Source: a virus. Taken from it: 64,000 bases of DNA. The notes beneath the pieces are model-generated. The model had not been told where the DNA came from. It ran no database searches and worked only from the letters and a program-made list of their open reading frames with translations. How positions within the stretch are numbered: position 1 is the stretch's first letter; each line of letters begins with the position of its first letter. Location of the stretch: positions 1-64,000 of IMG/VR virus record IMGVR_UViG_3300009160_000035. The stretch is one strand, 5' to 3'. Positions 23,269-61,963 of the stretch are shown here, piece after piece. The position numbers and the translations under genes are program-made.

Positions 23269-24081
23269 TTAGACTTTCACATCTAGTGGGTTAAACTTTC
23301 CTGAAACAAAGCCAGAACGCACTTGTTGAACAAGATAGTTCTCAGCTTTATTTATATCATGATTTCGTAATTCTTTGTATTTACTAGCCACTCTGCGCTC
23401 TACAGATGTGTAGTATTCCTCTGTAGTATCTATTGCGTCTTCAATGGTATTCACATCAAGCTTCTTACCCAGCTCTTTAGGCTCAGCAGAATCCTCAATA
23501 AGAATCTCTTCTGACTCTGAACTATCTGTAATCTCAGTTGTTGCTTCTTCTGCAGAATCCATAGGACCACTCATCTCTTCTGTAACTTCTTGCGCAGGAT
23601 CTTCAACTGGAATTTGCATACCAGCAGTCTGCAAAGAAGAACCAAGTTGCCATTGCCACTTCTGATGCATATCAATACGCTCAGCAACAAAATTAGCAAC
23701 GCCTTGTTCGTTTGCAGCATTACAAGCATCAAAAGCAGCCTTAAGCATTGCAATCATAGTAACATTCTTTTTATAAATGTCGAGAGCAAGTTCTTTTGCT
23801 TCGGTAGTCGTAGAATCATCTTTAAATGATGCCGTCTCTACTATATGACCAAGAGCAGGAGGAAACTCACCAAGCTTACGAATGTTCTCAGCAAGATCAT
23901 CTATTGACTCAAAAACGTCATCATAGATAGCTCCAAAAAGTTGATGATATTCAGTAAAGTCAGGACCAGCTACATTCCAGTGTGCACGATGAGCAGAGAA
24001 GTAGAAAACTACTACGTTACAAAGTAGATCTTCAAGGGCATCAGCTACTTGGCTAGCGCCAGGTGTCATTTCAGTTTCCAT
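23269..24081 (-). CDS. Dps/ferritin-like protein with C-terminal extension
   Basis: 270 aa. Residues 10-120 match the Dps family: AHWNVAGPDFTEYHQLF then ESIDDLAENIRKLG. The spacing of His34, His46, Asp61 and Glu65 equals that of the Dps ferroxidase ligands (His51, His63, Asp78, Glu82 in E. coli Dps), while the Asp67 equivalent is Gly50. Dps proteins form 12-mers that oxidise iron and can bind DNA. Residues 160-215 are an acidic Ser/Glu/Thr linker, and the last 50 residues are a basic helical tail. Placed between the protease/scaffold gene and the capsid genes, it may be a virion protein that borrows the four-helix fold or protects packaged DNA. Activity is uncertain because one ligand is changed. 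Confidence 0.75.
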   Translation of the reverse strand: METEMTPGASQVADALEDLLCNVVVFYFSAHRAHWNVAGPDFTEYHQLFGAIYDDVFESIDDLAENIRKLGEFPPALGHIVETASFKDDSTTTEAKELALDIYKKNVTMIAMLKAAFDACNAANEQGVANFVAERIDMHQKWQWQLGSSLQTAGMQIPVEDPAQEVTEEMSGPMDSAEEATTEITDSSESEEILIEDSAEPKELGKKLDVNTIEDAIDTTEEYYTSVERRVASKYKELRNHDINKAENYLVQQVRSGFVSGKFNPLDVKV

Positions 24082-45831: not shown

Positions 45832-47157
45832 TTAGTCATCGTCAAAGTCCATTGGATCTACAGTATTATCCCTTATTAAACTATTAATCTTGCTTAATGC
45901 AGCAGACATTTTTGTCATAGTTGAACTAACGCTCTCAGCCTTAGTAGCTTCTATCTTTGCTCTGGCATTTAGCTTGGCTTCTGGGGTACTTAATAGCTCC
46001 TTCATTAGTTGACTACGCATTTTCTGAAAACGCTCTTTCAATGCAAAGGCAGGATGTTCCTTCATCGCAGTCTTAACAGGATTACCATGCATATCATTGC
46101 TTAGTACGGCTTCCTGCATTAGGTCTCGACCTTCACCAAGGCTATCACCTTGACTTAATAGCATATTAACTCGAATCTCATAGATATCTAACTCAGCCAA
46201 CTTAGTAGCTAAGCTAACAATAGTAGGAGTAATGTAATTTAAATTATGAAAGTTTTCACTACAGTATTGCTTAACCTTAACCTGAAGAATACTTGCTTCT
46301 ACGGGGCAAGGTTGAAGCAAGGGGAATTTACTAGCAGCAAGATCAACACTACCGTTATCTCTCTTAACAGCAAACCAACAAGAACTACGGATTGGACAAC
46401 TCTCATAGCCTTTACAGATTAAGGGTACACTAGCATAAGTTCCATGCTTAACAGCGGCAAGATGCGACCTCATTCTAGCAGCACTCTGAGGTGTTATATG
46501 TAAGTCTCTATATAAATCAGGGTCACTACCAAGAAACGCCCCTAAACTACTATTAGAAAAAAAGTTAGCAGCATCTACAGTGCCAAGATCACTACTATCT
46601 AAGGCACTTTGAAAAGCATCACGTAAGCTAATACTAGTAGAAGAAGTATTATCAAGGGGCTCAACTCTTTCCAATAGTGTTTCATCGTTATCTAAAAGCT
46701 CACCTACTCTGTCAAGTAGAACTTGGGTATTAGCCTCCACGCCGCCGAGACCATTAGCATTTCTATTACCTGAAATCATACTAGAGTCTTTCAGGAGGGG
46801 TGAGGTCTTATCAAAGGCTTTATCCTCAGATATTTCCATTTGCCTAGTAGGTAGTCCCTTAGCACTAGAACTAATGTCTACATTTTCCTCTAATGCATTT
46901 AAATCAAAAGGCATCCCTTCCTCCTTTGAGGAGAACTCCAATCTATTAGATAGCTTACTAGACAATGTATAAGGATCTATAACTTGTCCAGTCATAGTAC
47001 CAGTATAAGTAGGGTTCTCTAAACGCGGTGCATTCTTATAGGGATTATCGGCTCCACGCCCTGCACTGTTGTCGTGTGAGGATCTAGGTTTATTCCTATT
47101 AGCCTTGTTTATATCATTGTAATGAGCCAAAACAGAATTCTTCTTACTAGTAATCAA
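45832..47157 (-). CDS. Cys-cluster protein, possible small terminase/packaging factor
   Basis: 441 aa and the first gene of the leftward operon. The N-terminal 200 residues are polar and Asn/Ser/Asp-rich, probably disordered. Residues 248-284 hold CKGYESCPIRSSC...PCPVE (Cys248, 254, 260, 284), a likely metal or Fe-S site. The C-terminal 130 residues are helical (basic coiled coil, ending DPMDFDDD). The large terminase also has a Cys cluster, so the two may act together. A small-terminase role is suggested by that and by operon position only. The start ATG is at 47157, with no strong Shine-Dalgarno visible. Confidence 0.5.
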   Translation of the reverse strand: MITSKKNSVLAHYNDINKANRNKPRSSHDNSAGRGADNPYKNAPRLENPTYTGTMTGQVIDPYTLSSKLSNRLEFSSKEEGMPFDLNALEENVDISSSAKGLPTRQMEISEDKAFDKTSPLLKDSSMISGNRNANGLGGVEANTQVLLDRVGELLDNDETLLERVEPLDNTSSTSISLRDAFQSALDSSDLGTVDAANFFSNSSLGAFLGSDPDLYRDLHITPQSAARMRSHLAAVKHGTYASVPLICKGYESCPIRSSCWFAVKRDNGSVDLAASKFPLLQPCPVEASILQVKVKQYCSENFHNLNYITPTIVSLATKLAELDIYEIRVNMLLSQGDSLGEGRDLMQEAVLSNDMHGNPVKTAMKEHPAFALKERFQKMRSQLMKELLSTPEAKLNARAKIEATKAESVSSTMTKMSAALSKINSLIRDNTVDPMDFDDD

Positions 47158-47515: not shown

Positions 47516-47552
47516 TTTGGACATCGCCCCCACAAGGGCAGTAAGGAACGCC

Positions 47553-49712
47553 ATGTGCACGCTCGCACAAACCCCTACCACCATCACCAACACCATCATC
47601 AATAACAAGACTATGAATAATAACACTCATAGCAACAACAAGGTGACTGTCATGACTAGCCTGATCAACGTTCTTTTCAATAGCAATAACCCCAGCTACC
47701 AGGCTGATAACGAGGTGGACGCCATGTCGAATAAGATTCAGTATACGAATGAGTATGAGGTTGACCTCAATAATAATCACCCGGTGTACAGTGATGTTAC
47801 CGAAGATGCGCAGTTTGAGGCTGAGATTGAGGCCCTGTACGAGGATGACAGCGAGATGCCTGTGATGAGCACTGCTAGCATGGAGGCTATCATGGCCTTT
47901 GCTGCACAGCAGGCTTGGGTTAAGAAGGATGTCAATAACAACGTCAATTCCGACGTTAATGAAGAGGATGTCATGAAGAACGAGGAGAATAAGATGTTTA
48001 GTATTGTACCTGTGTTGGCCATTGCTAGTGCAAACATGACTCAGGATAGGATCATGATTGTTATCGCGTTGATTGCCATGGTTGTCGCAATGATTGCTGC
48101 AGTTGTTGCTATGTTCTGGTATGAGAACAAGCAGAAGACTGATAAGCTTGCTAAGCAAGTGCGCAAGATGGCTGCTGAGAGTGAGCAGCAGCGCATGCAT
48201 GACGCCTTCTACATGATGGAGCGTCGTGAGCGTAACATTGCATATGCGCGTCAGCAGGCGTTGGATCAGGCAGAGCGCATTGCTCGTCTTGAGCGTGAAG
48301 CTGCTGAGCATGAGGCGTGGTGCCGCCAGGAGGAAGAGCGCGAAGCTCAGCGAATTGCACGCAATGCCCGGCTTTCCCTTGAAATCGCAGAAAGACAGCG
48401 CAAAAATCTTGAGATGCAAGCAGAACTTGGCTGTAAGCAGAGCGCAGAGACGATGAAGTACCAGGACTTTATCAAATCGATCGAAAACGCTACCGATATT
48501 AATGCCCTCTGGACTATGTTTGATACGCAACTCAAGGAAGAGATTACTTTTGAGTCCTTTATCAAGGCTGAAAAGAATCTTCAAGAGTCTGCGGACTACA
48601 GTTTCTTCTACAAGAATGCTAGTATTCAAGGCATCCGTTCGTACTGGCTAATGCTGGCTAACGTTGACGAAAGCAATCGTAATGCTGCGGCCTATAACAA
48701 TTTGGCCATCAAGTTCTCAGAATTTGCTCGCGCTCTCGAAAAAGCCATGAGAAATAGCGAAAATGAATACTACCACTTTATCTGCCAAACAAATTGGCAG
48801 CATGGTTACAACTGGCAGGCCTATCGTATTCTCACGAAGGCTGAGTGGCAAGCGGCAAAGTTGCTCATTGAGAAGAAGACCATTCAATTCTTTAGCCGCT
48901 GGTGCTTGCCGCTTAATGACGCGGCAACAGGTGGTTTGCTCGTTGCTATGAGCAAAGACGCTGCTTTTGCTGACGAAATGCATGCAATGAAGACTGAGGA
49001 AAACTTCTGGTGCAGCAAAGAAATGAATGCTGAGAAAAACCTCTGGAAGGCTAATCAGTGGAAGACTTATGCTCAGCGCTATAACAAGGTCAAGCAGCTC
49101 AAGGAAGACTTGATGCCTATCTTTGCTCTTGAGGAAGTTGCAATCTGCAAGCTTACGACTGACGTTGTTGTTGGCTTCAAGTTTGGTAGCAAAGAATTCA
49201 AGAGCTGTGACGTAGCTGACACTGAGCAGGTTGAGAAGATTCTTGCTGCTGGCTACGATCAGGTTCTTCGTATTCGTCGTACGGATGCCGCTGGTATGTG
49301 GAATGAGTCTCAGCAGATCAACAGCAAGTACACGGGTAAGTTCTGCACCGGTCATGGCACTCAGCAGAGCCATGGTTACTACCAGGAGAAGTTCCTCAAT
49401 GGTACGAATATCCCCTGGATTGCAGACATCCAGATCAACGGCGAATGGGATAACTTTGGCGTTATCCTTACGAACAGTGCTGGTGTTGTTGACTTCGGTA
49501 TGGGCGATAACAACCGCAGTAGCAAGCACCGTCCTATTCTGATTGGTATGTTTGGTGACGGCGAAAGCTCGGAGACCAAGAAGACCCCGGGTCAGATTGA
49601 GGCCATGAAAATCTCTAACACCTGGTTTATCCAGCGTGAATTCAATATCAACCATGTTGTGGCGCAGATCAAGGCTAAGCTTGCTGCCGATAGCTACAAC
49701 GATGTCTGGTAA
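47553..49712 (+). CDS. Membrane-anchored coiled-coil protein with C-terminal shared module
   Basis: 719 aa from ATG 47553, chosen because AAGGAA lies 5 bases upstream; in-frame ATGs at 47613, 47652 and 47724 are alternatives. Residues 1-160 are Asn/Asp/Glu-rich and probably disordered. A strong membrane helix (IVIALIAMVVAMIAAVVAMFW, about 166-188) is followed by about 100 residues of Arg/Glu/Gln coiled coil (193-293) and a helical region. Residues about 575-665 (INSKYTGKFCTGHGT ... FGVILTNSAGVVDFGMGDNNR) are clearly related to a segment of the 658-aa protein at 55578. No named family is recognised. The neighbouring membrane proteases suggest a membrane-associated complex. Confidence 0.7.
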   Translation: MCTLAQTPTTITNTIINNKTMNNNTHSNNKVTVMTSLINVLFNSNNPSYQADNEVDAMSNKIQYTNEYEVDLNNNHPVYSDVTEDAQFEAEIEALYEDDSEMPVMSTASMEAIMAFAAQQAWVKKDVNNNVNSDVNEEDVMKNEENKMFSIVPVLAIASANMTQDRIMIVIALIAMVVAMIAAVVAMFWYENKQKTDKLAKQVRKMAAESEQQRMHDAFYMMERRERNIAYARQQALDQAERIARLEREAAEHEAWCRQEEEREAQRIARNARLSLEIAERQRKNLEMQAELGCKQSAETMKYQDFIKSIENATDINALWTMFDTQLKEEITFESFIKAEKNLQESADYSFFYKNASIQGIRSYWLMLANVDESNRNAAAYNNLAIKFSEFARALEKAMRNSENEYYHFICQTNWQHGYNWQAYRILTKAEWQAAKLLIEKKTIQFFSRWCLPLNDAATGGLLVAMSKDAAFADEMHAMKTEENFWCSKEMNAEKNLWKANQWKTYAQRYNKVKQLKEDLMPIFALEEVAICKLTTDVVVGFKFGSKEFKSCDVADTEQVEKILAAGYDQVLRIRRTDAAGMWNESQQINSKYTGKFCTGHGTQQSHGYYQEKFLNGTNIPWIADIQINGEWDNFGVILTNSAGVVDFGMGDNNRSSKHRPILIGMFGDGESSETKKTPGQIEAMKISNTWFIQREFNINHVVAQIKAKLAADSYNDVW

Positions 49713-49716
49713 TACA

Positions 49717-50466
49717 ATGAAAATCAACACCCTCAACACCAACAAGGTGAACGTCATGAATAAGATTACTGAAGAAATCGCCGTTTCGGCTAAGATGGAG
49801 GAAACCATGAAGACTATGCGTGTTATTCACTGGACTGCGCCTAACTTTGGCGACATCATTGCTAAGGATGGCGTTCCCGCAATGGAAGTCACCAATCACC
49901 TTCACCCGGAAGGAAAGAAAGTGATGGGCACTTGGGCTGTTCCGGCAAATGCCAATCTGGATGCTTTCTGGGCTGCATACATTACCAAGAAGCACTCTTC
50001 GAGTGCTGTACAGGTAATCGCGGACGTTCCGATCTCCACTATCAAAGTCATGAAGGAAGGATTCCCGATTAAGTTCAATCTTGATCGTTGCAATGACCCT
50101 GTTATCTTTCGTGAGCTTGCTGAGCTTATGATGGACAACGACAACGGCCTGATCTGCTCTGAAGGTATCAAGCATGAGTGGATTGTTGAGGTCAACTATG
50201 CAGTTGAAATCTACAAGCCTGAAATTATGCTTGCACGAGAAATCAGAAAGTCTCCTCCTTTTCGCGACTGGAAGCCGACTGGACTTGACTGGGAAGGCGG
50301 TTGTCCTGCTTGTTCTCGCGTCGGTGACTACCTGTTCGAAGGGTACGCTCAGCGCTTTGGTCTTTGCGACGACTATAGCCTCGCTCGCAACCGTTCCATT
50401 GGCACAAAGGATGACAACTTTGACTTTATCGACCTTTTCGCCTGCGAAATCGTAAAGGTGTACTAA
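49717..50466 (+). CDS. Unknown protein with Cys pair
   Basis: 249 aa from ATG 49717, 4 bp past the preceding stop. A second in-frame ATG at 49756 follows AACAAGGTG. The body is alpha/beta (MRVIHWTAPNFGDIIAKDG, MGTWAVPANANLDAFWAAY). Near the C-terminus a GGCPACSRVGDY pair plus GLCDDY could bind metal. No membrane segment. No family recognised. Its stop overlaps the start of the first serine protease gene (TAATG), so the two are translationally coupled. Confidence 0.65.
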   Translation: MKINTLNTNKVNVMNKITEEIAVSAKMEETMKTMRVIHWTAPNFGDIIAKDGVPAMEVTNHLHPEGKKVMGTWAVPANANLDAFWAAYITKKHSSSAVQVIADVPISTIKVMKEGFPIKFNLDRCNDPVIFRELAELMMDNDNGLICSEGIKHEWIVEVNYAVEIYKPEIMLAREIRKSPPFRDWKPTGLDWEGGCPACSRVGDYLFEGYAQRFGLCDDYSLARNRSIGTKDDNFDFIDLFACEIVKVY

Positions 50467-51809
50467 TGAACACCATCGACAATTCTGTCGTCAACAAGGA
50501 GTCTGCTATGTCAATTGCATTCGTCATTTTTGCCATCCTGGCTATCATCACCGCTGTCTGGAAGGGGTCTGTCATGAACAAGTTTGTTGCCAACAAGGAG
50601 TCCGTCATGCTTGTCGTTAGCAAGAGGTCCATTGGGCTTGCGTTCAGCATTGTCTGCACTGCAGCTCTCTTCATTCCCTACGCCCTTGTGGCTACGTTCC
50701 AGGATATGGTCGTGTGCACTCTCGCACTTGCCCCCTTGGCATTTACTGCCATTGATATCCTCATCCACGTTGAGTACCATGACGATGTGCGCAGCATTGC
50801 ACTTGCAACCAACGCCTTCCATAATCTGAAGGTTAACGAGGCTCTTGTGAAAGCTAACTATGCGGAAATGATGGCAAAGATTGCAACCTTCCTTCTCCTC
50901 GTAATCACTACGGCTTGCGGTACCGATGCTAAGCCTGAGATTGAAAATGCGCAGTCGACCGCTAATGCTGTTACTAATTATGAGCAGGTTGATAATACTG
51001 CTAAGGCCTATGGCAAAATTGAGTCTCCTGTATACAAGGACGGTGAAGTTCTGTACGGCACCTGCAGCGCATGGAAATGGAACGGTAAGACCTACACCAT
51101 CCAGCACTGCAATGACTACCTGGAAAAGCACGGCAACACAGACCGCGTCCAGCAGTCAACAGCCGATAACACTATCTCTGGTGACTTCTACAAGGAAGGT
51201 ACAGAGTGCAGCCCTGATATCCGCTGGTGGGGCACAACCACCAATAAGTGGGTAACTATTCCTATGGAGCAGATCTTCAAGAAGACAAGAAACTATCTTG
51301 GTGCTCCTTACGAAATGCAACAAGAGCTTATTGACTCTAAGTATAAGGCTATTGCCGCTCTTAACGATTACAAGTACACAATCGAAGAGAACAGCATGAA
51401 GACTAATAGCGATAATACGAAGAAAGCAAAAGAAAAAGCACATGCAGCGTTCAACAAATTCTACAACCAGTTGAAGTACATCAAAGAGCACTACACAAGC
51501 CAAGAGTATCTCTGTGCTTCTTCTGTGGCGGAAGATAGCATCAAGAAGGGTGACTCTGGTGGCCCCATCATGCTTGGTGACGAAGTCATTGGTAGTGTCT
51601 CGTTTTTCGTTCGGACCGACAACCAGATGTTTGATGACTTCTATCCGGAAGCTCATAGCAACTATCAGGTCTCTTGCTTTGCTATGGTTGACAATAAGCC
51701 GGTTGCATCGCCGTTCATTGATGAAATGGCGTCAAGCTACTCGGATATCTTTAGCGATTACACGAATGTCTTTGACATCATTGAAATGCTGGGGTGGACT
51801 CATGAATAA
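50466..51809 (+). CDS. Membrane-attached trypsin-fold (S1-like) serine protease 1
   Basis: 447 aa from ATG 50466. The catalytic triad is visible: His214 in YTIQHC, Asp251 in CSPDIRWWG and Ser364 in KKGDSGGP. Cys200 and Cys215 are spaced like the chymotrypsin C42-C58 disulfide. The position equivalent to residue 189 is Ser358, hinting at a chymotrypsin-like rather than trypsin-like S1 pocket. Before the protease lie hydrophobic segments at about 16-33, 55-79, 80-102 and 138-150, the last ending TTACG (Cys151), a possible lipobox. Internal in-frame starts with Shine-Dalgarnos occur at 50508 and 50607, and an ATG at 50871 would give a clean lipoprotein signal. Related to the next gene. Substrate unknown; action outside the cytoplasm inferred. 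Confidence 0.85.
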   Translation: MNTIDNSVVNKESAMSIAFVIFAILAIITAVWKGSVMNKFVANKESVMLVVSKRSIGLAFSIVCTAALFIPYALVATFQDMVVCTLALAPLAFTAIDILIHVEYHDDVRSIALATNAFHNLKVNEALVKANYAEMMAKIATFLLLVITTACGTDAKPEIENAQSTANAVTNYEQVDNTAKAYGKIESPVYKDGEVLYGTCSAWKWNGKTYTIQHCNDYLEKHGNTDRVQQSTADNTISGDFYKEGTECSPDIRWWGTTTNKWVTIPMEQIFKKTRNYLGAPYEMQQELIDSKYKAIAALNDYKYTIEENSMKTNSDNTKKAKEKAHAAFNKFYNQLKYIKEHYTSQEYLCASSVAEDSIKKGDSGGPIMLGDEVIGSVSFFVRTDNQMFDDFYPEAHSNYQVSCFAMVDNKPVASPFIDEMASSYSDIFSDYTNVFDIIEMLGWTHE

Positions 51810-52953
51810 CGTTACTGTTCTAGACATTGCTGCTAACTCAACAAACAAGGAGAAGGTCATGGACAACTGGGAAGAAATGCAACAGGCCGAGCTTAAGGCG
51901 TACCGTGAGAGGGAGGACAAGATGAAGAAGGCAGACCGCCGCGAGAACATCCTCTTTGTGCTGGCAATGGTTGCAATCTTTGCAGCCTTTGCTGGTATCT
52001 TTGTGACCATGACGGGTAATAACACCCGCCTTCGCCAGGAAGAAGCTGCTGCGGCACGGAAGGAGGAAATCCGTCAGGCAGAGTGGGTTGCTAACAGCGA
52101 CTATTACGAGGTTGTTCAGGAAGTGGAAGAATTCCTGGAAGAGAAGTACCGGGCAGAGAACAACATCCACCCTGGAATTGGTCCTGTCAACACCAGGGAA
52201 AATGAAGGCCCCCTTGATGAGAGCGGGAACTGCACTGCATGGAAGTGGAAAGGTAAGATCTACACGGCAGAGCACTGCACACGTAACGGTTACCGTGAAA
52301 ACGCTGGCGATATCGTTGTGCCGGCTGACCATTATCCTAACGAAATCAAGGAAGATCTCTATGAGATTGGTCTTGAGTGCAGCACTGACTTCCGTTGGTG
52401 GGGTAAGACCACAGACATGTGGGGTTATGTGCCTTTTGAGCAGGTCTTTGACCACATGAAGAAGGGTACGCCTAGCATGAAAGAGCAGAATGACATGAGA
52501 TGGGCATTCATTGATGCCAGAAAAGCACTTGAGGATGTAAGTCTGAAAAGCCCCGAGGTTATCTTCAAGAATCTTGTTGATACCTACAAGAGGTACATTG
52601 CAGGCGCTAGCAACCAACGCTTTATCTGTGCTGCCAGCCTCAGCCTTGAAGTTTCTCCTGACCATGGTGACTCTGGTGGGCCTTTGATGGCCGGCGATGA
52701 AGTGATTGGCTTCGTATCTTATGCGGAAAGCCCTCAGCGCCAAGCCCTTGGCACAGGTGATGCTGAAGACTTTCAAGTCAAGTACAATGATGCCTTGTAC
52801 ATTGGCCAAACTGACTGCTGGGGTAGCTTGGACCGCAGCAAGGATACGGTAAACCTGGCTTACGCCAAGGAAAACATGGAATGGTACAAGGACCTTTATC
52901 AACAGTTCCTGCTTAAATACGGGCAGGAGACTATCAGCAACTGGGAGAAGTAA
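51802..52953 (+). CDS. Membrane-attached trypsin-fold (S1-like) serine protease 2
   Basis: 383 aa from ATG 51802, overlapping the previous stop; a second in-frame ATG at 51859 follows AACAAGGAG. Charged N-terminus, one membrane helix (LFVLAMVAIFAAFAGIFVTM, 51-70), a Glu/Arg coiled coil, then the protease: Cys144...Cys159, His158 in YTAEHC, Asp196 in CSTDFRWWG, Ser291 in DHGDSGGP, and Ser285 at the residue-189 position. It is paralogous to protease 1, sharing TAWKW.GK.YT..HC and WWGKTT-type segments as well as an inserted helical region between Asp and Ser. Topology (N-in, protease outside) is inferred from the charged N-terminus. Complete triads argue that both are active. Confidence 0.87.
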   Translation: MNNVTVLDIAANSTNKEKVMDNWEEMQQAELKAYREREDKMKKADRRENILFVLAMVAIFAAFAGIFVTMTGNNTRLRQEEAAAARKEEIRQAEWVANSDYYEVVQEVEEFLEEKYRAENNIHPGIGPVNTRENEGPLDESGNCTAWKWKGKIYTAEHCTRNGYRENAGDIVVPADHYPNEIKEDLYEIGLECSTDFRWWGKTTDMWGYVPFEQVFDHMKKGTPSMKEQNDMRWAFIDARKALEDVSLKSPEVIFKNLVDTYKRYIAGASNQRFICAASLSLEVSPDHGDSGGPLMAGDEVIGFVSYAESPQRQALGTGDAEDFQVKYNDALYIGQTDCWGSLDRSKDTVNLAYAKENMEWYKDLYQQFLLKYGQETISNWEK

Positions 52954-52954
52954 C

Positions 52955-53125
52955 ATGATTGTCGTCCTGTTTGTCCTAATTTTCCTCCTTATTAAGGGGG
53001 AGATGACCGCCAAGGTTGCAGCTAACGCTGAGGCCAAGGCTATTGAAAAGGCTGCTGTCAAGAAGGCAGTGGCTCGCCGTTTCCGTCACTCCCGCATCGG
53101 CCGCATTGGCCGGCGTATCCACTAG
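52955..53125 (+). CDS. Small membrane protein with basic tail
   Basis: A 56-aa frame starting MIVVLFVLIFLLIKGEM, 1 base past the protease stop (GGAGAAGTAAC upstream supplies the Shine-Dalgarno). It has one short hydrophobic helix at the very N-terminus, an Ala/Lys-rich middle and an Arg-rich end (RRFRHSRIGRIGRRIH). TAG is at 53123-53125. Small membrane proteins with cationic tails can act as holins, antimicrobial-like peptides or protein partners. Nothing here decides between them. The AAGGGGGAG before the internal ATG is suggestive of a second start. Confidence 0.6.
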   Translation: MIVVLFVLIFLLIKGEMTAKVAANAEAKAIEKAAVKKAVARRFRHSRIGRIGRRIH

Positions 53126-53142
53126 TGCCTAGGGAGAACGTC

Positions 53143-55581
53143 ATGGATAAGCAAATGAATGTATCTATTTGTACTATTACAAAGGTTGTTCCAATGAATG
53201 ATATGAAGATTGATAGGCCTACCAAGGAGATTAAAATGGAAAAGGTTTTCGTTGGCGATATTCACGCACGTCCCTCTCTCGTCACTTCTGCCATTGAGAT
53301 GGCAAACGGCAGAGACATTATCTTCCTCGGAGATATCTTCGATGGGGAAGGTGGCGCACAGGGTGCCAAGGATTGCCTTGACATCATTCGTGCCTCTGGC
53401 TCGGAGCTCATCTTGGGCAACCATGAGCTGTATCCTCTCTTCTTTGGCAATAGCCAGGAAGAATTGACAAAGGCTTGGAGCCTGCACTATAACCTGGCAG
53501 ACGAAGACTATGTACGCATCTGGAATGAGTGGTGCAAGCTTCGTGCTCTACTTACGGAGGACGATATGGTCTGGTTGCGCTCTCGGCCTCTATGGGTCAA
53601 GGACACAACCTGGACGGCTGTCCATGCCAAACTTCCAGCTGGTAAATTGCCTCCTAGGTTTGTCAAAGGTAAGCCGACTGCAGCCCAGATCGAGCTTGTT
53701 GATAACACTGACCCTGATAACTTCTGGGCCAAAGATTACAAGGGTAAGCACGGGCTTGCTATTGTTGGTCATACTCGTCGTTCAAAGATTCCTCAGGGGC
53801 AATGCTCTTGGGATCATGTGCGCCTTATTGACTGGGATGCCAAAAAAGGTGGTCCTGGTTGTGTCTATGTGCTAGAGGAGGACAAGATGAGTGAGATTGT
53901 GAACCAACCTGAACCAACACCCCCACCGCCACTGGAGACTACAATGGCAATGAAGATCGCGCTCGACGCACTCATCCGCATGCTTACCCACGATGTCAAG
54001 ATTGCCGCAATGTGTGGCATCAGCGACACCGGAAACCCGCACTACACGGAGCGCCCCATGAAGAACAAGAAGTCCCGTCCACCCAAGGATATCGTCATGC
54101 GTAACAAGTCCAAATCCCCCCGTCCTCCAAAGGATCTCGTCATGCGTCAGTCTCGTATGTCCCGCCGGTCTCGCCGTCGCCTCCTTCACCTCTGGCGCAA
54201 GCGTGCCGGCATCCGCTTCCACGGCGTGTCGGTCCCCCGCCCCGAGGTCCAATACATCTACACCGAGAGCTACAAGGTTGGGGGTGGCCGCAAGAGCGGT
54301 CACGTCGGCGGCTGGTCGATTGGCCTCATTGGTCAGCGCCAGAAAGAGAAAGCAACGGGGCCGGCGAACAATCGACCTGGCACTGCCCTTCGGAAGCTGC
54401 TCGCCAAGAAGGCAAACCGCGCCAACCGCTACACTCGCCCCGAGACTGCGGTGAAGATCGAGGTTGCTCAGCGCAAGGCTAAGGCCAAGCGCAACGAGCT
54501 TCCCATCCTTCGTGCACAGGCCAAGCCGTTCGTGGCAAAGCCTGTGGTCAAGAGCGCCGCAAAGGTCAAGGTCGTCCGTAACAACGACTACTTGGATGCC
54601 ACCCGCCTCGTCAAGGCAGCATTCGGGCCTCGTTCGGCGAACACGGGGGTCAAGACCCTCGACAAGACCGTTCGCACCGCTCGTCGTGCTGCTGCCGCAC
54701 GGCTCAGCTCCTTCTGCCGTTTTTGGAACGTCAATGAGGTCGGGGTGCGCTGGGCTGATCAGAACCCTGCCCAGATCGCCAACCAGAGTGCCACTGCCAA
54801 GGCTGCGCGTCTTGCTGTCGAAGCCGAGGTAAAGGCTGCACAGGCTGCAGTCCTCGCCAAGGTGGACGCCGAGAAGAAGGCCGTCAAGGCCAAGGTCACG
54901 GCAATCCGCGCTGCAATCGCTGCACGCAAGGCACAGGAGCTCTCGGAGGCTCGCGCTGCCAAGAGCGCCAAGGCGGCAACTCGCAAGGCCAAGGCTGCGA
55001 AGGCAAAGGCAAAGGTCAAGGCCGTGATCAAGGCCAAGGCTGGCATCACGACGGTCACCACGGTTGCGCCGACTGCTAAGCCTGCTGCTGCCAAGGTTAT
55101 GGTCGTCATGACCAAGCCTGAGGCCGCTCCCAAGGCTGAGGTCAAGCCTGCCGTCAACGCACCCGCCAACGCACCCGCCAAGCCCCGTCTGGGCACCGGC
55201 TGTTCGTTCGTCTCGCTTCCTCACAACCTCCGGAAGGAGATCGCTGTGGTGAAGTTCGGTCGACCTGCTGCGCCTGCACGTGAGCATGCCCAGGTGACCA
55301 TGTCTGACCTCAAGGCTGTGGCCAAGTTCCGCAAGCCTGTGGTTGCAACTGTGCCTATGGCCGACGCAGAGCCGCGTCCTTCCTTGCTTCTGCGACTGTT
55401 CGAGTTGCTTCCTGCGGTCAATCCTGCGCCTACAGCGCTCACGATTGAACAGGCTGCTGACTTGTTCATTGACGTAGTGATCGGTAAGAAGACCGAACTG
55501 CGCAATGACATCCAAGTTAGCCGGAAGATTAATCATGGAATTGTTAACTGTGCCAAAGTGGCAAAGGGGGTAAATCAATGA
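53143..55581 (+). CDS. Calcineurin-like metallophosphatase with histone-H1-like Lys/Ala tail
   Basis: 812 aa from ATG 53143 (AGGGAG upstream). The stronger start is ATG 53236 behind AAGGAG, giving MEKVFVGDIHARP. Counting from 53236, phosphoesterase motifs are GDIH (Asp8, His10), GDIFD (Asp33, Asp36), GNHE (61-64), AVHA (His130) and GHT (178-180), the order seen in PP2A/ApaH-type enzymes. From about residue 218 (MSEIVNQPEP, ATG 53887 with GAGGAGG upstream) the frame continues into a Pro-rich linker, an Arg-rich segment, and about 250 residues of Ala/Lys/Val repeats like histone H1, then a short folded end. The tail region is distinctly GC-richer. Either one fused protein or two nested products; the tail probably binds nucleic acid. 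Confidence 0.75.
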   Translation: MDKQMNVSICTITKVVPMNDMKIDRPTKEIKMEKVFVGDIHARPSLVTSAIEMANGRDIIFLGDIFDGEGGAQGAKDCLDIIRASGSELILGNHELYPLFFGNSQEELTKAWSLHYNLADEDYVRIWNEWCKLRALLTEDDMVWLRSRPLWVKDTTWTAVHAKLPAGKLPPRFVKGKPTAAQIELVDNTDPDNFWAKDYKGKHGLAIVGHTRRSKIPQGQCSWDHVRLIDWDAKKGGPGCVYVLEEDKMSEIVNQPEPTPPPPLETTMAMKIALDALIRMLTHDVKIAAMCGISDTGNPHYTERPMKNKKSRPPKDIVMRNKSKSPRPPKDLVMRQSRMSRRSRRRLLHLWRKRAGIRFHGVSVPRPEVQYIYTESYKVGGGRKSGHVGGWSIGLIGQRQKEKATGPANNRPGTALRKLLAKKANRANRYTRPETAVKIEVAQRKAKAKRNELPILRAQAKPFVAKPVVKSAAKVKVVRNNDYLDATRLVKAAFGPRSANTGVKTLDKTVRTARRAAAARLSSFCRFWNVNEVGVRWADQNPAQIANQSATAKAARLAVEAEVKAAQAAVLAKVDAEKKAVKAKVTAIRAAIAARKAQELSEARAAKSAKAATRKAKAAKAKAKVKAVIKAKAGITTVTTVAPTAKPAAAKVMVVMTKPEAAPKAEVKPAVNAPANAPAKPRLGTGCSFVSLPHNLRKEIAVVKFGRPAAPAREHAQVTMSDLKAVAKFRKPVVATVPMADAEPRPSLLLRLFELLPAVNPAPTALTIEQAADLFIDVVIGKKTELRNDIQVSRKINHGIVNCAKVAKGVNQ

Positions 55582-57554
55582 GTAAGATGACCAAAAACAT
55601 GACCACCGAACAGAAGGAGGCCCTTATGAAGGCCAAGCAAATGCGTCTCGAACAGCGGCAATATATTGCCAATGAGATCCAGCCTGAAATGCCTGGGTTC
55701 TCGCTGTCAAACCTGATGAGTGTGCGTAAGCGCATCATTGCTCTAAAGGAGCAGGGAGTTGACATGTACCGCATTCGGTGCTTTGGCTCTGAGCGTCAGG
55801 TTAAGTGGTCGCCGCCGACGGGCCGGACCAAGGTGATCAAGGTAAAGGTCATGAATGTTGCGGCATTCAACAAGTTTGCCAGTATCCTCCTTGCCAATAA
55901 GGAAATGATGGCCTGGTTCAAGGAGGTTACTCATGAGCCTACCTGGGAGACCTTCTTCCAGGACATTGCCAAGCTGGCCAAGAAGAAGAATTGTATTGAA
56001 ACATGGTCAGCTGCCGAATGGCACGTTGTTCGCAATCGGTACACTAGCACAGTTGAGCTTGTGAATAGCTTGTCTGTCAAGTTCCTGGGCGCGGTCATCG
56101 GCGAGGCATCCCTCAAGACCTGTGAAGTAACGGCTCTCTTCAACAAGGAGACGTATTACTTCCGCTGGGTTGATCCCCAGCAGGCGTGGGATGAATGCAA
56201 GAGCATCAATTCACGCTACAAGGGGCACTTCTGCGTTGGTGGTGGCACCTATCAACAGCAGATGAAGTCTGGACAATACCACGGCTATATTGTTGATAAA
56301 ACAGTAGATGCCAAGACGGGCACCGATGGCAACGGGAATAAGTTCTCGTTTGGCTTTGTCCTGACTGCTGGCGGTGGTGTCTCTGACTGGGGCTTTGGCA
56401 ATGAAAACCGCTGGGATGGCCAAGAAGAGCAACTTGCCAAGCAGGTGTTTGGAGAGGCCAAACTCAACCCCAATGGCCCTGAAGAGAAGTGGATCAGAAT
56501 GATCCTTACGTCCTGGTACAAGATGCGGAAGATGACCTATAACGAATGGGTATCGGAAATCGAACGCATTACAGAGTTTGCAAAAACCACTGACGTGTAC
56601 GAAAGTGGCGAGATTGCTCACTTTGGCAAAAGAGAGGAAGTTCTTACTTGGTCAAAAACTGGTAAGACTTGCATTCAAAACCTTGCCTGTGGAAGAGCAG
56701 TTCGGAATACATACCTGTGCGACAAGGGTGTATTTAGAGTCGAACTCGTTAATCGTGTTGTGGTAACCGCAACTGGCTTTGTAGAACAGGCTGTACCTCA
56801 GAACAAAAGGTACCAAAGGTTCTATCTGACCAATGTGGACAGCACGAGCCAAGCATATTATCATATGCTACGGTATCTGCAGCTTTTCAAAGCTAGTGAA
56901 TGTAATGGTATGTATGCTTATGACTTGCATAATCTTGCGAATGAGCAGAGTGGTACCCTTTGGACTGACTGCAACCGTCCGGACTTGGATTGGGGGTACT
57001 TCGAAGACGAGTATCGTCAAAAGTGGGAAACAACAGAATATGGGATGCTTCCGCACCTTGCTGGTCTGTCTTTCCCGGAATTCAAGGCTCGGTACCATGC
57101 AGAGCTTCAAGAAAGCAAAGCCTCGCGTGCTGTCTACTCGCTGAAGACAAAACTACCAATGGCAAACTCTGAGTTGCGAGCTCAGGTTCACATGTTCGAT
57201 AAAATCGACATGAATCTTCGTTTGTCCATGGTGCAGACGGATGTATCGGACAACAAGAAGGGTTCGTCTAGGAAGCAATTAGCCGGACTAGATCTGGCGA
57301 TAAAGCTCTTTTTCGACTTCGGTTACGACTGGATGAAGACCAAGTGCGGCTTTATGTTGGTTCATCCTGAGATTGCAAAAGCTAATCCTCATCGGATGAT
57401 GACTGCCGAAGAACGTGCAATGCTTAACTACACAGACTGCAACTCAAAGCATACATCAACTCGTGAGGGTTGGGACTCTGGCTTCAAGATGGAGACAGTA
57501 TCAGTAGTTGCTCCGACTCTTCCTGTTGTTACAATGGATATGGGCGAATGGTAG
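55578..57554 (+). CDS. Unknown protein sharing a module with the 719-aa membrane protein
   Basis: 658 aa from ATG 55578, overlapping the previous stop (ATGA). A second in-frame ATG at 55626 follows GAAGGAGG. The N-terminal 195 residues are basic and helical. Residues about 195-280 (INSRYKGHFCVGGGTYQQ ... FGFVLTAGGGVSDWGFGNENR) correspond to residues 575-665 of the gene at 47553, with conserved Cys, Gly-Gly-Thr, and D(F/W)GxGxxNR features. A Cys-containing region (KTCIQNLACGRAVRNTYLC) and a helical C-terminus follow. No membrane segment, unlike its relative. Function unknown. The shared module may bind a common ligand or partner. Confidence 0.65.
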   Translation: MSKMTKNMTTEQKEALMKAKQMRLEQRQYIANEIQPEMPGFSLSNLMSVRKRIIALKEQGVDMYRIRCFGSERQVKWSPPTGRTKVIKVKVMNVAAFNKFASILLANKEMMAWFKEVTHEPTWETFFQDIAKLAKKKNCIETWSAAEWHVVRNRYTSTVELVNSLSVKFLGAVIGEASLKTCEVTALFNKETYYFRWVDPQQAWDECKSINSRYKGHFCVGGGTYQQQMKSGQYHGYIVDKTVDAKTGTDGNGNKFSFGFVLTAGGGVSDWGFGNENRWDGQEEQLAKQVFGEAKLNPNGPEEKWIRMILTSWYKMRKMTYNEWVSEIERITEFAKTTDVYESGEIAHFGKREEVLTWSKTGKTCIQNLACGRAVRNTYLCDKGVFRVELVNRVVVTATGFVEQAVPQNKRYQRFYLTNVDSTSQAYYHMLRYLQLFKASECNGMYAYDLHNLANEQSGTLWTDCNRPDLDWGYFEDEYRQKWETTEYGMLPHLAGLSFPEFKARYHAELQESKASRAVYSLKTKLPMANSELRAQVHMFDKIDMNLRLSMVQTDVSDNKKGSSRKQLAGLDLAIKLFFDFGYDWMKTKCGFMLVHPEIAKANPHRMMTAEERAMLNYTDCNSKHTSTREGWDSGFKMETVSVVAPTLPVVTMDMGEW

Positions 57555-57559
57555 AAAAC

Positions 57560-60500
57560 ATGAAACAGAACGTAACCATTTTGGTTACTGACAAGGAGGG
57601 TACTATGTACCGTAGCTATCGAGAGCATCTCGAGTATTCCGGGGTTAAGAGCCCCTATTCCGATCTTCCGGGCTTTGAAAGCCTCCTCGACCACCCTGTG
57701 GTTGAGAAAGGGCAGAAATGCCCGGACGGTCACGTTGCCCTCTTTGCTGTTAGCAGCATGGAGACGCTGATGGTGCCTAAGGCGCTGAAGGCAAAGCTTG
57801 TGGGTTCTGTTGGGTATACCAGCAAGACCGCTCAGAAGGGCCGCAAGTATGCGCGTTCCATGATGACGGCCACCTACAGCGCCATCGTATCTGCAACTGG
57901 CAAGGTTGTAGACATGGCTGACTTGGATCCTGCCTACAAGGCAATCCAGGACGGTGTCCACTACATGGGCACTGCAGAGCTCACCCCTGGCCCCATGACG
58001 CAGGGCATGCAGGTTCGCCGTGTGGTTAAGCTCGAAGCGTACTATAAGGGCGCAATGGGTGCGGTCAAGCTTTGGCTTCCGCCCCATGTCTTCCTGCTGA
58101 GCTCCGAAGGCAAGCAGGATCTCAAGCCTGATCTCTCTCCCGATGTTGCGCTTATGGTGCAGCCGACCGTTGGTGAGATGAAGTCTGAGCCTGGTGTCCT
58201 TCTCGGCGTCCAGAACTTGAGCGCCCTGTTTGGTCAGGTGCTCAACGACCCGAAGTTCCATGCGATCCTCAACGAGATGATTGACTGGAACATCTCGCAC
58301 TGGGATGACTACGTCAAGAATGCCCTTAAGGGTCTCGATGGCGACGTCCTTGAGGCAACGGAAACGTCCTCAACATTCAAGGCAAAGATCACCAAGATGC
58401 TTCTTAGCCTTGGTGTTCACCCTGGCGCAATTCCTGCTACTGTGACTACTCTAGTCAACAGTGTCAGCGAAGACGTTACGCAGAGCAAGCTTCGCATCAA
58501 CGCGGTTACAAAGGACGGCCCTTGTGGCTTTACCTCGTATCCCCGCGCTCTTGTCTGGCGTATGTTCCGTGACCTGTGGCTCCATGAGGAGAAGCAGGGT
58601 GCCTTTGCAAACGAAACCGCTGGCCTGAAGAAGCGTCGTCTTCTCATCATGGCTGAGCTTGACCGCAAGGCAAAGATCGAGGAAGCGTTCAACGCCAAGT
58701 CGGAACAGATCCTTGCCAAGACGGGATTTGCGGCAATTGCTATCACGGCAGAAGCTGCGAAGAACCTCAACGTTCCTGCTCTTAACATCCATGATGTGAA
58801 GGGTGAGAACGAGAAGGAGCTTGCCGTCAACCATCGGGATAGCCTTGGCGCTGCGGCTCGTTGGCCTACTTCGGCTAAGGTCGATGTGCGGGTTATCTAT
58901 GTTGTCCTTAAGGACGACATGTTCCTGCACGCTACTGCATACTTCGGCAGCACGGAGATCATGCAGAAGGCTGTCCTTGTTAGCATGGACGGCGGTGACG
59001 CTGACGACAAGGCGTTCTTCCTGTGCGGTAAGCTTGGCTTGCTTGCGCTGCGTTCTATGAACCTGCGTAACTACAAGCTGAGCCAGTTCACCGTTCAGCA
59101 GGTCCAGGATACTTACGAGAAGGCACACACCTTCCTTGCTAAGCTTCCTGAAAAGCTTGATCTTGTGAACACCATTCCGAATGGTCACAAGCTGCTGTCG
59201 TCGTACTTTGATGTCAAGACGGTCGAGACTGTCTCGCCTTCTGGCTTGATCAAGTACAACATTACGGCCCTTGCTGAGAAGGCTCAGCCTGCAGATCCTT
59301 CGGTTGCCGACAAGACTGCTGAAGAGAAGTGGGACATGATTCACCTTCCTGGTGATAACGAGTTCATGCCCATCGTTGGCGCAATGGCAAATGCTCAGAT
59401 GTTCGGCAGCTATCTGCTTGCTGACCTGATCATTCTGCCGTCGGTAGTCAAGACTCCATCCGCCCTTCTTGCAGCTTGCATGATGGAAGGTGAGATCTCG
59501 CTGGTGGTCGATGCTGCTCAGAGCGGCACTGACTTCCCCGGCGCTTGGCGTGCATGGCACAACATCGACGCTATCATGACGATGATTGCTGTCAGCTGGG
59601 TACTCAACGACCGCAATGCGATGCGTGAGAATCCCGATGCTAAGCCTAGCAAGATGACGGCCCTTAAGCCTGTGCGCAAGCGGCTTGGTGTCAGCCTTCT
59701 TTCGCTTGTAACTGCACCTGTTGCTGTGCGTTACACGGGAGAAATCTCCGAGATCACGGGCGAGAACATCATTGCTCCTGCCTTGTTCAAGGACGAAGAG
59801 GGCAAGATCCCGATGACCGCTAAGATCTGCCAGAGCCTTCGTCAGACGGTTGTCACGGCAGATGGTCGGTCTGTCAAGGTTGAGCATCCCATCATCCGCA
59901 GCTTCACACGCTACTGGAAGACGATGACCTCGAACCTCAAGTCGTTCATCGATGAGGGTCACAGCACTCAGACTGCTACTCTCCTGACCTCCAATCTTCA
60001 GGCGTTCCTTGAAGAGCACTCGCATGAGCTTGATGAGCTGATCAGCAAGCACTACCGGGATGAGCAGGAGCAATACGAGGGTGAGTTCAATCTCACGACC
60101 TTCGGCTCCTTCATGTTCCGTAAGTATCATGCGGTCAATCGCTACAGCCAGGACAATGGTCACATGATGACTGTGCCTGAGGCAATGAAGCATCGTTACG
60201 AGGAAATCGACAAGGTTCGCTACATGATGAACGCTGAAGAGCTCAAGACCCTTCGTCGGGTTTACGCTCAGAAGCCCATCCATGCAGCCTTCGCAGCACG
60301 TCACGAGGATCTCTGGCCTCTCTTCGAAGAGGTCTACGAGGATAAGGCTGAGTACAAGTACGAAATGTTCGTGCTTTCTGAGCTGATGTCCGCTCTCGGT
60401 ACGTCTGCGGAAAAGCCTATTACTCTGTCCATGGGCAAGGGTAAGGTCGAGTTCCTTGATGACGAAGAAGGCAACAAGACAAAGATCATCGACTCTGACG

Positions 60501-61963
60501 CCATCGACGCGCAGGGTGAGCTTACCTCCAGCGGTGGTTACAGCCGCAAGATGTACTTTGCCTCGACCGGTAACTACAAGGGCTACGCAGAAGTTCTCTG
60601 CAAGTTCCTTGAGGATGCTGCCGTGAAGAAGACTCAGGATAAGCTTCTTGCTGCCGACGTTCGCGCCGCCTTCCTCATTCGTGAGAGCAAGGATGGCAAG
60701 ACTGTTGATCCTCAGTCGCTTGTTGGCCTCAACATCCAGCAGCTCCTCAGCGACAACCGCATTCAGCTTGCATACGGTGGACAGCGCGGTAACCCTGACC
60801 AGGACCATCGCGCCGCCGCAGTTGCTTACTTGGTCTTCCGCAAGACCAGCGAGACGCGCAAGGCATTCGAGAACAACGGTGCCTTCAAGGGCAAGACTCA
60901 GTGGCAGATTGCCGGCATGATGGGCTACCACGGTACTCTCAACAACTTCTTCAGCGGTGCTACCGTTGAGGCAAGCGAAGTGGAGAAGCGTGACGGTCAT
61001 GGTGCCAACGGCAAGACCTACACTCGTAACTTCGTCTGGCTGACCTTCAAGGGTCAAGAGCCGGTCAAGCCCGAGCCTCCTCCCGAGAAGGAGTTCTTCG
61101 ATATCTCTGTCTCTGAGAATATCGACTACGACAAGATGCTGGAGAGCGCAGGCATGGCAGACTTCAACTTTGAAGATGCCTTTGGTTCTGAGAATCCAGT
61201 CAGCGCTGAAGAGCTGGAGCAGTATGCTAGCGAGTACGACAGTGACGAGGAAGAGTCTGAGACTCAAATCTTCAGTGAAGTACTTGAAGGCACGTACACT
61301 GCGGCACAGCCTGTACAACTTGTAATGGTCAACGGCAAGTGGCAGCCTAAGAACATGGCAGATGTCAATTGGGTCCCGGTTGACGCTCCTGCTGTTGAAG
61401 CCAAGCCTGCTCCTGCTGTGCCTGTTGTTGCCGTGGAAGCAAAGCCCTACAGGATTGCATTCACTGGTCATCGCCCCGAAAAGATTGGCGGCTATGACGA
61501 GAATCATCCTCTGCGTGTTGCTGTAAAGAATGCAATCGCAGATGCATTAAAGCGTGCCATTGCCAAGTACAGTGCAACTCGTGAGATCATCGTCGTTACT
61601 GGTGGTGCTCTTGGCGTTGACACTGATGCCGCACGTGAGGCTCACAAGCTTGGCCTCAAGTTCATCGTGGCTCGTCCTTGCAGCGACCATGGTGATTACT
61701 TCAAGGGTGACGAAGCTAAGATGCGTTACAAGAAGATGCTTGCTCTTGCTCATCAAGTTGTGCTTGTCAATAAGAAAGGCTACGACCTTGCAGGCAAAGA
61801 GAAGTGTCTCCACGCACGGAACTACTGGATGGTTGATAACTGCGAGGCGGTTGTCGCAATCTGGGATGGTTCTCCGAGTGGCACATCCAACTGTGTCAAC
61901 TACGCCAAGAAGGTCAATCGTCCGATGATTATCATCAACCCGAACGACCTTGCAAAGAAGTAG
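57560..61963 (+). CDS. Giant protein with C-terminal SLOG (YspA/DUF1273-type) domain
   Basis: 1467 aa from ATG 57560, or 1452 aa from ATG 57605, which has AAGGAGGG 6 bases upstream and is the better start. The first about 1220 residues are unrecognised: alpha/beta with a Pro/Glu-rich linker followed by a very acidic segment (SEYDSDEEESETQ) and an Ala/Pro/Val linker. The last about 175 residues (61440-61963) are a SLOG Rossmann domain of the YspA/DUF1273 type: FTGHRPEKIGGY, VVTGGALGVDTDAA, VAIWDGSPSGTSNCVNYA. SLOG domains bind nucleotides or NAD-derived ligands, and in Thoeris ThsA one senses a cyclic ADP-ribose isomer. Here it may regulate the large N-terminal part or bind a host signal. Confidence 0.75.
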   Translation: MKQNVTILVTDKEGTMYRSYREHLEYSGVKSPYSDLPGFESLLDHPVVEKGQKCPDGHVALFAVSSMETLMVPKALKAKLVGSVGYTSKTAQKGRKYARSMMTATYSAIVSATGKVVDMADLDPAYKAIQDGVHYMGTAELTPGPMTQGMQVRRVVKLEAYYKGAMGAVKLWLPPHVFLLSSEGKQDLKPDLSPDVALMVQPTVGEMKSEPGVLLGVQNLSALFGQVLNDPKFHAILNEMIDWNISHWDDYVKNALKGLDGDVLEATETSSTFKAKITKMLLSLGVHPGAIPATVTTLVNSVSEDVTQSKLRINAVTKDGPCGFTSYPRALVWRMFRDLWLHEEKQGAFANETAGLKKRRLLIMAELDRKAKIEEAFNAKSEQILAKTGFAAIAITAEAAKNLNVPALNIHDVKGENEKELAVNHRDSLGAAARWPTSAKVDVRVIYVVLKDDMFLHATAYFGSTEIMQKAVLVSMDGGDADDKAFFLCGKLGLLALRSMNLRNYKLSQFTVQQVQDTYEKAHTFLAKLPEKLDLVNTIPNGHKLLSSYFDVKTVETVSPSGLIKYNITALAEKAQPADPSVADKTAEEKWDMIHLPGDNEFMPIVGAMANAQMFGSYLLADLIILPSVVKTPSALLAACMMEGEISLVVDAAQSGTDFPGAWRAWHNIDAIMTMIAVSWVLNDRNAMRENPDAKPSKMTALKPVRKRLGVSLLSLVTAPVAVRYTGEISEITGENIIAPALFKDEEGKIPMTAKICQSLRQTVVTADGRSVKVEHPIIRSFTRYWKTMTSNLKSFIDEGHSTQTATLLTSNLQAFLEEHSHELDELISKHYRDEQEQYEGEFNLTTFGSFMFRKYHAVNRYSQDNGHMMTVPEAMKHRYEEIDKVRYMMNAEELKTLRRVYAQKPIHAAFAARHEDLWPLFEEVYEDKAEYKYEMFVLSELMSALGTSAEKPITLSMGKGKVEFLDDEEGNKTKIIDSDAIDAQGELTSSGGYSRKMYFASTGNYKGYAEVLCKFLEDAAVKKTQDKLLAADVRAAFLIRESKDGKTVDPQSLVGLNIQQLLSDNRIQLAYGGQRGNPDQDHRAAAVAYLVFRKTSETRKAFENNGAFKGKTQWQIAGMMGYHGTLNNFFSGATVEASEVEKRDGHGANGKTYTRNFVWLTFKGQEPVKPEPPPEKEFFDISVSENIDYDKMLESAGMADFNFEDAFGSENPVSAEELEQYASEYDSDEEESETQIFSEVLEGTYTAAQPVQLVMVNGKWQPKNMADVNWVPVDAPAVEAKPAPAVPVVAVEAKPYRIAFTGHRPEKIGGYDENHPLRVAVKNAIADALKRAIAKYSATREIIVVTGGALGVDTDAAREAHKLGLKFIVARPCSDHGDYFKGDEAKMRYKKMLALAHQVVLVNKKGYDLAGKEKCLHARNYWMVDNCEAVVAIWDGSPSGTSNCVNYAKKVNRPMIIINPNDLAKK

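Follow-up and report, generated by a model that had tools for sequence, protein, structure and literature searches.

Tandem trypsin-like proteases in a membrane gene island of a large tailed phage: a possible self-cleaved polyprotein and its split-up counterpart

What might a tailed phage cut with two trypsin-like proteases that are encoded outside its virion genes and that appear to be anchored in a membrane? The question is raised by the window analyzed here, a stretch of 64,000 bases out of the 80,099-base virus record IMGVR_UViG_3300009160_000035, in which two adjacent open reading frames (ORFs) encode putative serine proteases: P1 (50466–51809, a maximal ORF of 447 aa) and P2 (51802–52953, 383 aa when counted from an ATG at 51802; it overlaps the P1 stop codon). 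Both are on the plus strand, as are all features below unless another strand or record is given. They belong to a block of seven plus-strand ORFs that starts at ∼47.5 kb, here called the island, with the order gA, gB, P1, P2, MPP, g658, and gSLOG (the labels of the five neighbors are our own). The virion operon, with tail sheath, major capsid protein, portal, and terminase, runs on the minus strand up to ∼47.2 kb, and its portal shares 29–33% identity with the portals of Acinetobacter phage ME3, a Moorella phage, and a Bacillus phage. The placement of the proteases outside the virion operon, claimed in an earlier note made from the letters of this DNA, is borne out by this arrangement. Tentatively, and with somewhat less than even confidence, we propose that the main job of P1 and P2 would be to cut the membrane-anchored product or products of the island itself.

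The candidate catalytic residues of P1 are H214, followed by C215 in the motif TIQHC, D251 (CSPDIRWWG; 51216–51218), and S364 (GDSGGP; 51549–51566, with the Ser codon at 51555–51557); the block from the Cys42-like residue, C200, to the His57-Cys58-like pair reads CSAWKWNGKTYTIQHC (51063–51110). Numbered from the ATG at 51802, the counterparts in P2 are C144 and H158-C159 (TAEHC) within the block CTAWKWKGKIYTAEHC (52231–52278, His codon 52273–52275), D196 (CSTDFRWWG; 52387–52389), and S291 (GDSGGP; 52666–52683, Ser codon 52672–52674). The two proteins are 33% identical across 248 aa (E 2e-32) and are paralogues. These ORFs, motifs, and identity confirm what the earlier note had described: tandem paralogues with His, Asp, and Ser in the order found in trypsin, and a Cys beside the His.

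Close relatives of P2 occur in three IMG/VR contigs, G001 (174 kb, 100% identical), G002 (176 kb, 89%), and G003 (49 kb, 83%), each of which carries both proteases. More distant loci were collected with two baits, the virion gene adjoining the island (window 45835–47157; 9 loci) and the terminase (19 loci), which gave 17 records beyond G001–G003. A protease-profile search was run on 15 of these, records of 4.3 and 5.7 kb being omitted, and three of them match: G004, G005, and G007. Nine of the 12 records without a match are shorter than 20 kb and may miss the locus, and G008 (112 kb) ends at the neighboring gene. A wider scan, with a profile of nine protease domains representing five distinct types, found these six IMG/VR records again and added none.

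The organization of the locus differs among these records. In G004, a single protease gene (313 aa) precedes an ORF of 2,189 codons. In G005 and G007 the whole island is a single open frame of 3,766 codons, so that protease and other modules share one ORF there, which is not the case in the window record. The G005 frame begins with membrane segments, a first protease domain (protease A), further membrane segments, and a P1-like segment pair with a lipobox-like LGGC; it continues with a second protease domain (protease B, which carries TAAHC and GDSGGP), membrane segments, and a charged coiled region, and it ends with the g658 module (codons 1512–2066), the gSLOG module, and a HIRAN domain. By homology the order of modules is protease, protease, MPP-like (a weak match), g658, and gSLOG. 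In all 16 blocks of this giant ORF, GC content is lowest at the second codon position.

The assignment of these domains to a protease family draws on several comparisons. P1 (27.1 bits) and P2 (31.6 bits) both exceed the gathering cut-off of Pfam Trypsin (PF00089; 20.6 bits), the significant similarity being confined to the last third of the model, which holds the Ser part. A six-frame search of G000–G003 recovered both proteases in every record, with 8/8 copies above this cut-off; the G004 protease scores 33.2 bits, and all six sequences of a protease domain alignment match the family (best E 2.9e-8). Among solved structures, the nine-domain profile finds kallikrein and trypsin chains, the best being kallikrein 6 (E 3.9e-5), and a single-sequence search with P2 finds kallikrein 6 more weakly (E 0.018). 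In profile–profile comparisons against an S1 alignment, made from bovine trypsin and nine sequences of bacteria or phages, the aligned region was limited to the Ser part (E 4.2e-7 and 2.2e-7). When the His half was scored against an S1 profile, shuffled sequences did as well in 0/1000 cases for P2, 0/1000 for the G004 protease, and 4/1000 for G005 protease B. Of 200,000 shuffles each, 38 (P2 region) and 54 (P1 region) contain the pattern C-x(10,12)-T-x2-H-C.

Residues conserved in all nine domains of the profile comprise C42, H57, C58, both candidate Asp, GDSGG, S214, and three further Cys. The two invariant Asp lie 28 and 39 residues after the His (as counted in the first row of the alignment), and the second (D-[LFI]-R-W-W) is preferred as the catalytic one, by eye only. 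Likewise by eye, the IVGG-type mature N-terminus of the S1A proteases, which lies ∼26 residues ahead of Cys42, is absent before C144 of P2 and C200 of P1. Neither protein has a match below E 0.04 in PHROGs. Two other database matches of P1 were set aside as effects of composition: the top structure match, a chain of a large-virus capsid entry (E 1.1e-6), covers residues 149–197, outside the protease domain, and no stretch of it passes alone, and a match to SF3a60_bindingd (20.1 bits) is below the cut-off of that family. The similarity searches and the conserved residues support the assignment of P1 and P2 to serine proteases of the S1 / PA-clan type, with a complete set of predicted triad residues.

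Their fold is likely S1-like. AlphaFold models, each built with six close sequences, reached a mean pLDDT of 40.9 for full P2 and 50.6 for its domain only and are too poor to use; a Foldseek search with the domain-only model gave nothing below E 1.1 and no protease among the best 50 of 64 matches. The better-modeled parts of the domain-only run are a C-terminal helix and a helical stretch between Asp and Ser (52477–52644 in P2). Both the G004 protease and G005 protease B lack most of the latter, which therefore has the look of an insertion in a compact core.

Hydropathy gives membrane segments ahead of both protease domains, as the earlier note had described, with about four in P1 and one in P2. 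Those of P1 are predicted at residues 13–31 (50502–50558), at residues 58–76 and 82–100 (50637–50765), and at residues 133–151 (50862–50918), the last ending in a lipobox-like ITTAC whose Cys codon is at 50916–50918. The single P2 segment (residues 50–68; 51949–52005) is preceded by basic residues. The ITTAC motif recurs in two relatives, and LGGC takes its place in G005; its position is internal to the ORF. From the single P2 segment after basic residues, the lipobox-like segment ends in P1 and G005, and the conserved Cys beside the His, we infer that the protease domains face the periplasm. Of the earlier note's membrane-attached S1-fold proteases, then, S1/PA membership, the triad residues, and the anchoring stand as read from sequence; the double β-barrel is the part that the models left unconfirmed.

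A second feature of the island is the nesting of ribosome-binding sites within its genes. We searched for AAGGAG-N(4–8)-ATG followed by at least 60 codons. On the plus strand of the window island, 6/6 such sites are in frame within an ORF whose own start is farther upstream, with a spacer of six nucleotides in all. In a control comprising the rest of G001 and the window on both strands, 2/17 distinct sites are placed in this way (Fisher p 0.0003, for the sites of the window island alone), and 6/17 have this spacer. The six island sites (50496–57607) leave the genes a short in-frame leader. Two are within P1, at 50496–50510 (ATG 50508) and at 50595–50609 (ATG 50607, likely the main P1 start, MLVVSKRS), and one within P2, at 51847–51861 (ATG 51859, likely the main P2 start, MDNWEEM). 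In G005, 6/6 sites are in frame (five inside the giant ORF and one just beyond its end), and the only site in G004 is as well (1/1). By alignment offsets, G005 codon 494 is the counterpart of the P1 internal start at 50607 and codon 1499 that of the g658 internal start; a further site, at codon 2281, is near the start of the gSLOG homologue. Together with these sites, the overlaps between the island genes suggest both coupled and independent starts. The first internal start of P1 yields one membrane segment more than the second, and one might speculate that the choice between the two could switch the side that the protease faces. The motif K-E-x-x-M was considered as a cleavage motif and rejected; because AAGGAG codons underlie 12 of the 13 copies present in island ORFs (window, G005, and G004), it is read as a by-product of the ribosome-binding site.

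The fused frame is what leads from these observations to the proposed role. Because G005 has internal starts but no stops, all of its products share one C-terminus, and internal starts alone cannot yield separate modules; if the modules work separately, as in the window phage, proteolysis must free them. A chain that would need cutting, with two triad-bearing proteases inside it, is the ground for proposing that the proteases process the island's own products. P1 and P2 would then be compact, membrane-anchored, probably extracytoplasmic S1-like proteases within a multi-module membrane island that is organized as a polyprotein or as its split-up counterpart. Cleavage would occur in cis in single-chain relatives such as G005 and mostly in trans in the window phage, and the lipobox may be a cleavage site for signal peptidase II of the host. 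Among the four functions that the earlier note had offered (cleavage of host surface proteins, superinfection exclusion, defeat of host defense, and processing of neighboring phage proteins), the last gains most, since the relatives fuse the proteases with homologues of the neighbors; the shared frame is observed, and the cleavage itself is an inference. Purifying selection on the protease domains (dN/dS 0.13–0.24) and capsid-like codon usage, both described below, also speak for this reading. The broader picture is of a lineage of large tailed DNA phages with a membrane polyprotein, nested Shine-Dalgarno starts, and self-cleavage by two embedded trypsin-like proteases, present in fused, partly fused, and split states and convergent with RNA viruses. 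We regard this picture as conceivable and hold it with more doubt than confidence. The island is possibly a new expression strategy for tailed phages.

Several observations weigh against these proposals. The double-barrel fold is unconfirmed and the models are poor, and the His half alone does not stand above shuffled sequence for P1 (137/1000) or G005 protease A (776/1000) when scored with the S1 profile. The G005 ORF reaches 17.5 bits, under the Pfam Trypsin cut-off of 20.6. The DNA of G005 and G007 is identical over 19,743 bases, so the giant ORF rests on one population, and stop codons divide the modules of the window phage into separate genes. If the proteases are periplasmic, they cannot reach cytoplasmic junctions. 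Finally, the protease-profile search found no such protease in G006 and G009; parts like those of gSLOG are present in a 2,266-codon ORF of G009 and match likewise in G006, which indicates that this core does not need the protease.

The main rival is that P1 and P2 are host-directed envelope proteases, aimed at a host receptor, a periplasmic defense or stress protein, or the proteins of an incoming phage, and that their fusion to other modules is incidental. The membrane anchors and conserved Cys suit the periplasm, and the patchy presence of the proteases among phages with the same neighboring virion gene is as expected for host-interaction genes. Comparison of the window with G002 and G003 gives dN/dS values of 0.13–0.14 (P1) and 0.20–0.24 (P2) for the protease domains, which are under purifying selection, and of 0.23–0.35 (P1) and 0.47–0.55 (P2) for the N-terminal parts; the faster evolution of the latter also favors host-directed cleavage. 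So does codon usage: among 106 genes (those of the window plus G001 genes of at least 150 codons, duplicates of virion genes excluded), P2 ranks 10 and P1 ranks 11 in resemblance to the major capsid protein, and both are, because of this resemblance, probably strongly expressed. The codon preference of the block correlates with that of the capsid gene and its neighbor at r 0.82 and with the remaining genes at r 0.34, the high-expression reference being one or two genes only. The GC content of the block (0.47–0.58, vs. ∼0.39) could have marked imported foreign DNA, a reading that we set aside because high expression is the simpler explanation of the capsid-like codon choice. Host-directed cleavage has no direct evidence for any host target, however, a scan of defense families gave no match for the proteases, and it does not predict the fusion of proteases and downstream modules into one frame in G005; we consider it unlikely, though deserving of serious weight. 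An envelope protease family without a match among deposited phages would in any case be a good candidate for host control or exclusion.

The giant ORF could also be a plain gene fusion, an uncut large membrane protein whose protease domains act on another target and whose internal starts give shorter forms. Very long ORFs do occur without a protease (2,266 codons in G009) or next to a separate protease gene (2,189 codons in G004), and in-frame Shine-Dalgarno sites could tune the dose of C-terminal forms; yet the chain holds two protease domains with triad residues and five strong starts, and the homologous modules are separate proteins in the window phage, which leaves an uncut fusion improbable. 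A single-segment anchor and a lipobox-like signal in adjacent, overlapping genes might instead suggest a pair for lysis or envelope remodeling, with P2 anchored in the inner membrane and P1 as an outer-membrane lipoprotein, clearing periplasmic proteins near lysis. The candidate endolysin in G001, a CHAP-domain protein (22.2 bits; Pfam cut-off 26), is ∼94 kb distant, and G005 joins both proteases to the downstream modules in one chain, so that we give this spanin-type pair little credence, although no search aimed at spanins was made. Least probable of all, to the point of being nearly negligible, is a role in head maturation. Tailed phages usually need a head maturation protease, and among the virion genes scanned (part of the operon) none was clearly identified, the one weak match to such a protease being on the capsid protein. 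P1 and P2, however, are on the opposite strand, outside the virion operon, and membrane-anchored, and they were not found in G006 and G009, which resemble each other in their ORF list beside the virion gene and keep TerL 89% and the neighboring virion gene 84% identical. Cleavage of the island's own products, for which these records offer a fused and a split arrangement, is the reading we retain.

The remaining genes of the island flank the proteases on both sides. Upstream, gA (47550–49712) has one predicted membrane segment, a coiled coil by eye, and a C-terminal domain related to part of the g658 module; it is followed by gB (49699–50466; 255 aa), which has no family match. Downstream are MPP (53125–55581), with a calcineurin-like phosphoesterase N-terminus and an Ala/Lys-rich C-terminus, g658 (55578–57554), and gSLOG (57554–61963; 1469 aa), whose parts are homologous to stretches of ORFs in G005, G004, G006, and G009. 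The earlier note had placed the proteases beside other membrane proteins. By hydropathy this holds for the 731-aa ORF upstream (one segment) and does not hold for the 255-aa ORF, the phosphoesterase, or g658; gSLOG gives only a weak signal.

A YpsA-type SLOG domain, C-terminal in gSLOG, is also present in G004, and HIRAN domains lie near the ends of the G005 and G004 ORFs. The gSLOG core, which recurs in G005 (ORF codons 2282–3400), G004, and G009, carries R-x-P-T and GGDxDD-type motifs and appears RNA-polymerase-like by eye; profile searches of solved structures gave no polymerase, and the likeness to double-psi β-barrel RNA polymerases is no more than a lead. In G009, the 2,266-codon ORF (locus L085, 3177–9968, minus strand) matches phrog_464, of unknown function (E 3.5e-33), and, around residues 1752–1851, a ribonucleotide-reductase-like PHROG (E 2.5e-7). 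Where the proteases would be, the G006/G009 locus has small ORFs, one with a lipoprotein-like start, MDKLKIALLASLLTACSS. The domain common to part of gA and the g658 module is faintly PcfJ-like by eye, and a PcfJ-like protein is encoded in locus L028 (13284–14681, minus strand) at the family cut-off (25 bits). Elsewhere, a ferritin-like domain protein (PF00210, E 2.7e-15; window 23269–24081, minus strand) is encoded within the virion operon, two genes ahead of that for the major capsid protein, and locus L027 of G001 (14202–15305, minus strand) encodes an adenylosuccinate synthetase (PF00709, E 2e-78) with a GDEGKGK motif, by eye, as in PurA. A von Willebrand-like protein lies beside an AAA+ ATPase in locus L016 (16653–19310), and by eye the two resemble the MoxR-vWA pair described for jumbo phages in one survey (PMC7824862).

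How unusual are such proteases among phages? Neither P1 nor P2 has a match at E 1 in 50,697 phage records. Searches of bacterial and archaeal genomes gave 100 and 62 pattern-matching stretches, none of which was confirmed, and relatives without those short patterns would escape such a search. The rarity of the trypsin fold in phages, asserted in the earlier note, agrees with a bovine trypsin query that matches one of the 50,697 records at E 0.01. This sole match, gene 109 of Rhodococcus phage Shagrat, is likewise a phage S1 protease; unlike P1 and P2, it is a lone gene of 257 aa among other annotated genes, is nearer to classical trypsin, and has no tandem or fused module. A trypsin-like serine protease is also named for Rhizobium phage P10VF and Sinorhizobium phage phiM9 (PMC10783043), a likeness by name; the phage collection gave no match to P1 or P2 at E 1. 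Trypsin-like phage proteases are thus rare, but with precedent in Shagrat and the two rhizobial phages. The survey of 224 jumbo phages does not contain the word "trypsin" in its main text; the peptidases that it does describe (ClpP, prohead S77, XkdF, and SprT, proposed to act on virion or host proteins) belong to other families than P1 and P2 (PMC7824862).

Compared with the S1 family at large (PF00089, kallikrein 6, and bacterial trypsins), the P1/P2 set is alike in the GDSGGP motif followed by GD-x-x-x-G-x-V-S, in the Cys182-like position, in the C42/H57-C58 block, in the Asp before hydrophobic residues, and in the His-Asp-Ser order. It differs in that no IVGG-type N-terminus is seen by eye, in an Asp–Ser gap that ranges from 54 residues (G004) to 113 (P1) and holds a helical stretch in the window pair, and in up to four predicted anchor segments; the barrel is unconfirmed.

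Open-licence PMC literature held no phage counterpart to a polyprotein of this kind among the matches listed, and no crAss-like phages with polyprotein, protease, and RNA polymerase together were found there. The closest parallel is with RNA viruses. A polyprotein cut by an embedded chymotrypsin-like protease is a hallmark of many RNA viruses; in plus-strand RNA viruses the polyproteins embed chymotrypsin-like 3C or 3C-like proteases, which are membrane-flanked in nidoviruses. The G005 ORF, with downstream modules and two protease domains between predicted membrane segments, is alike in layout. Unlike these viruses, the island belongs to a DNA tailed phage, its proteases probably act on the periplasmic side, it has internal Shine-Dalgarno starts, it has no known cleavage sites, and its modules are separate genes in the window phage. 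If the parallel holds, a tailed phage whose modules exist fused, half-fused, and split would make it possible to study in bacteria how polyprotein expression arose.

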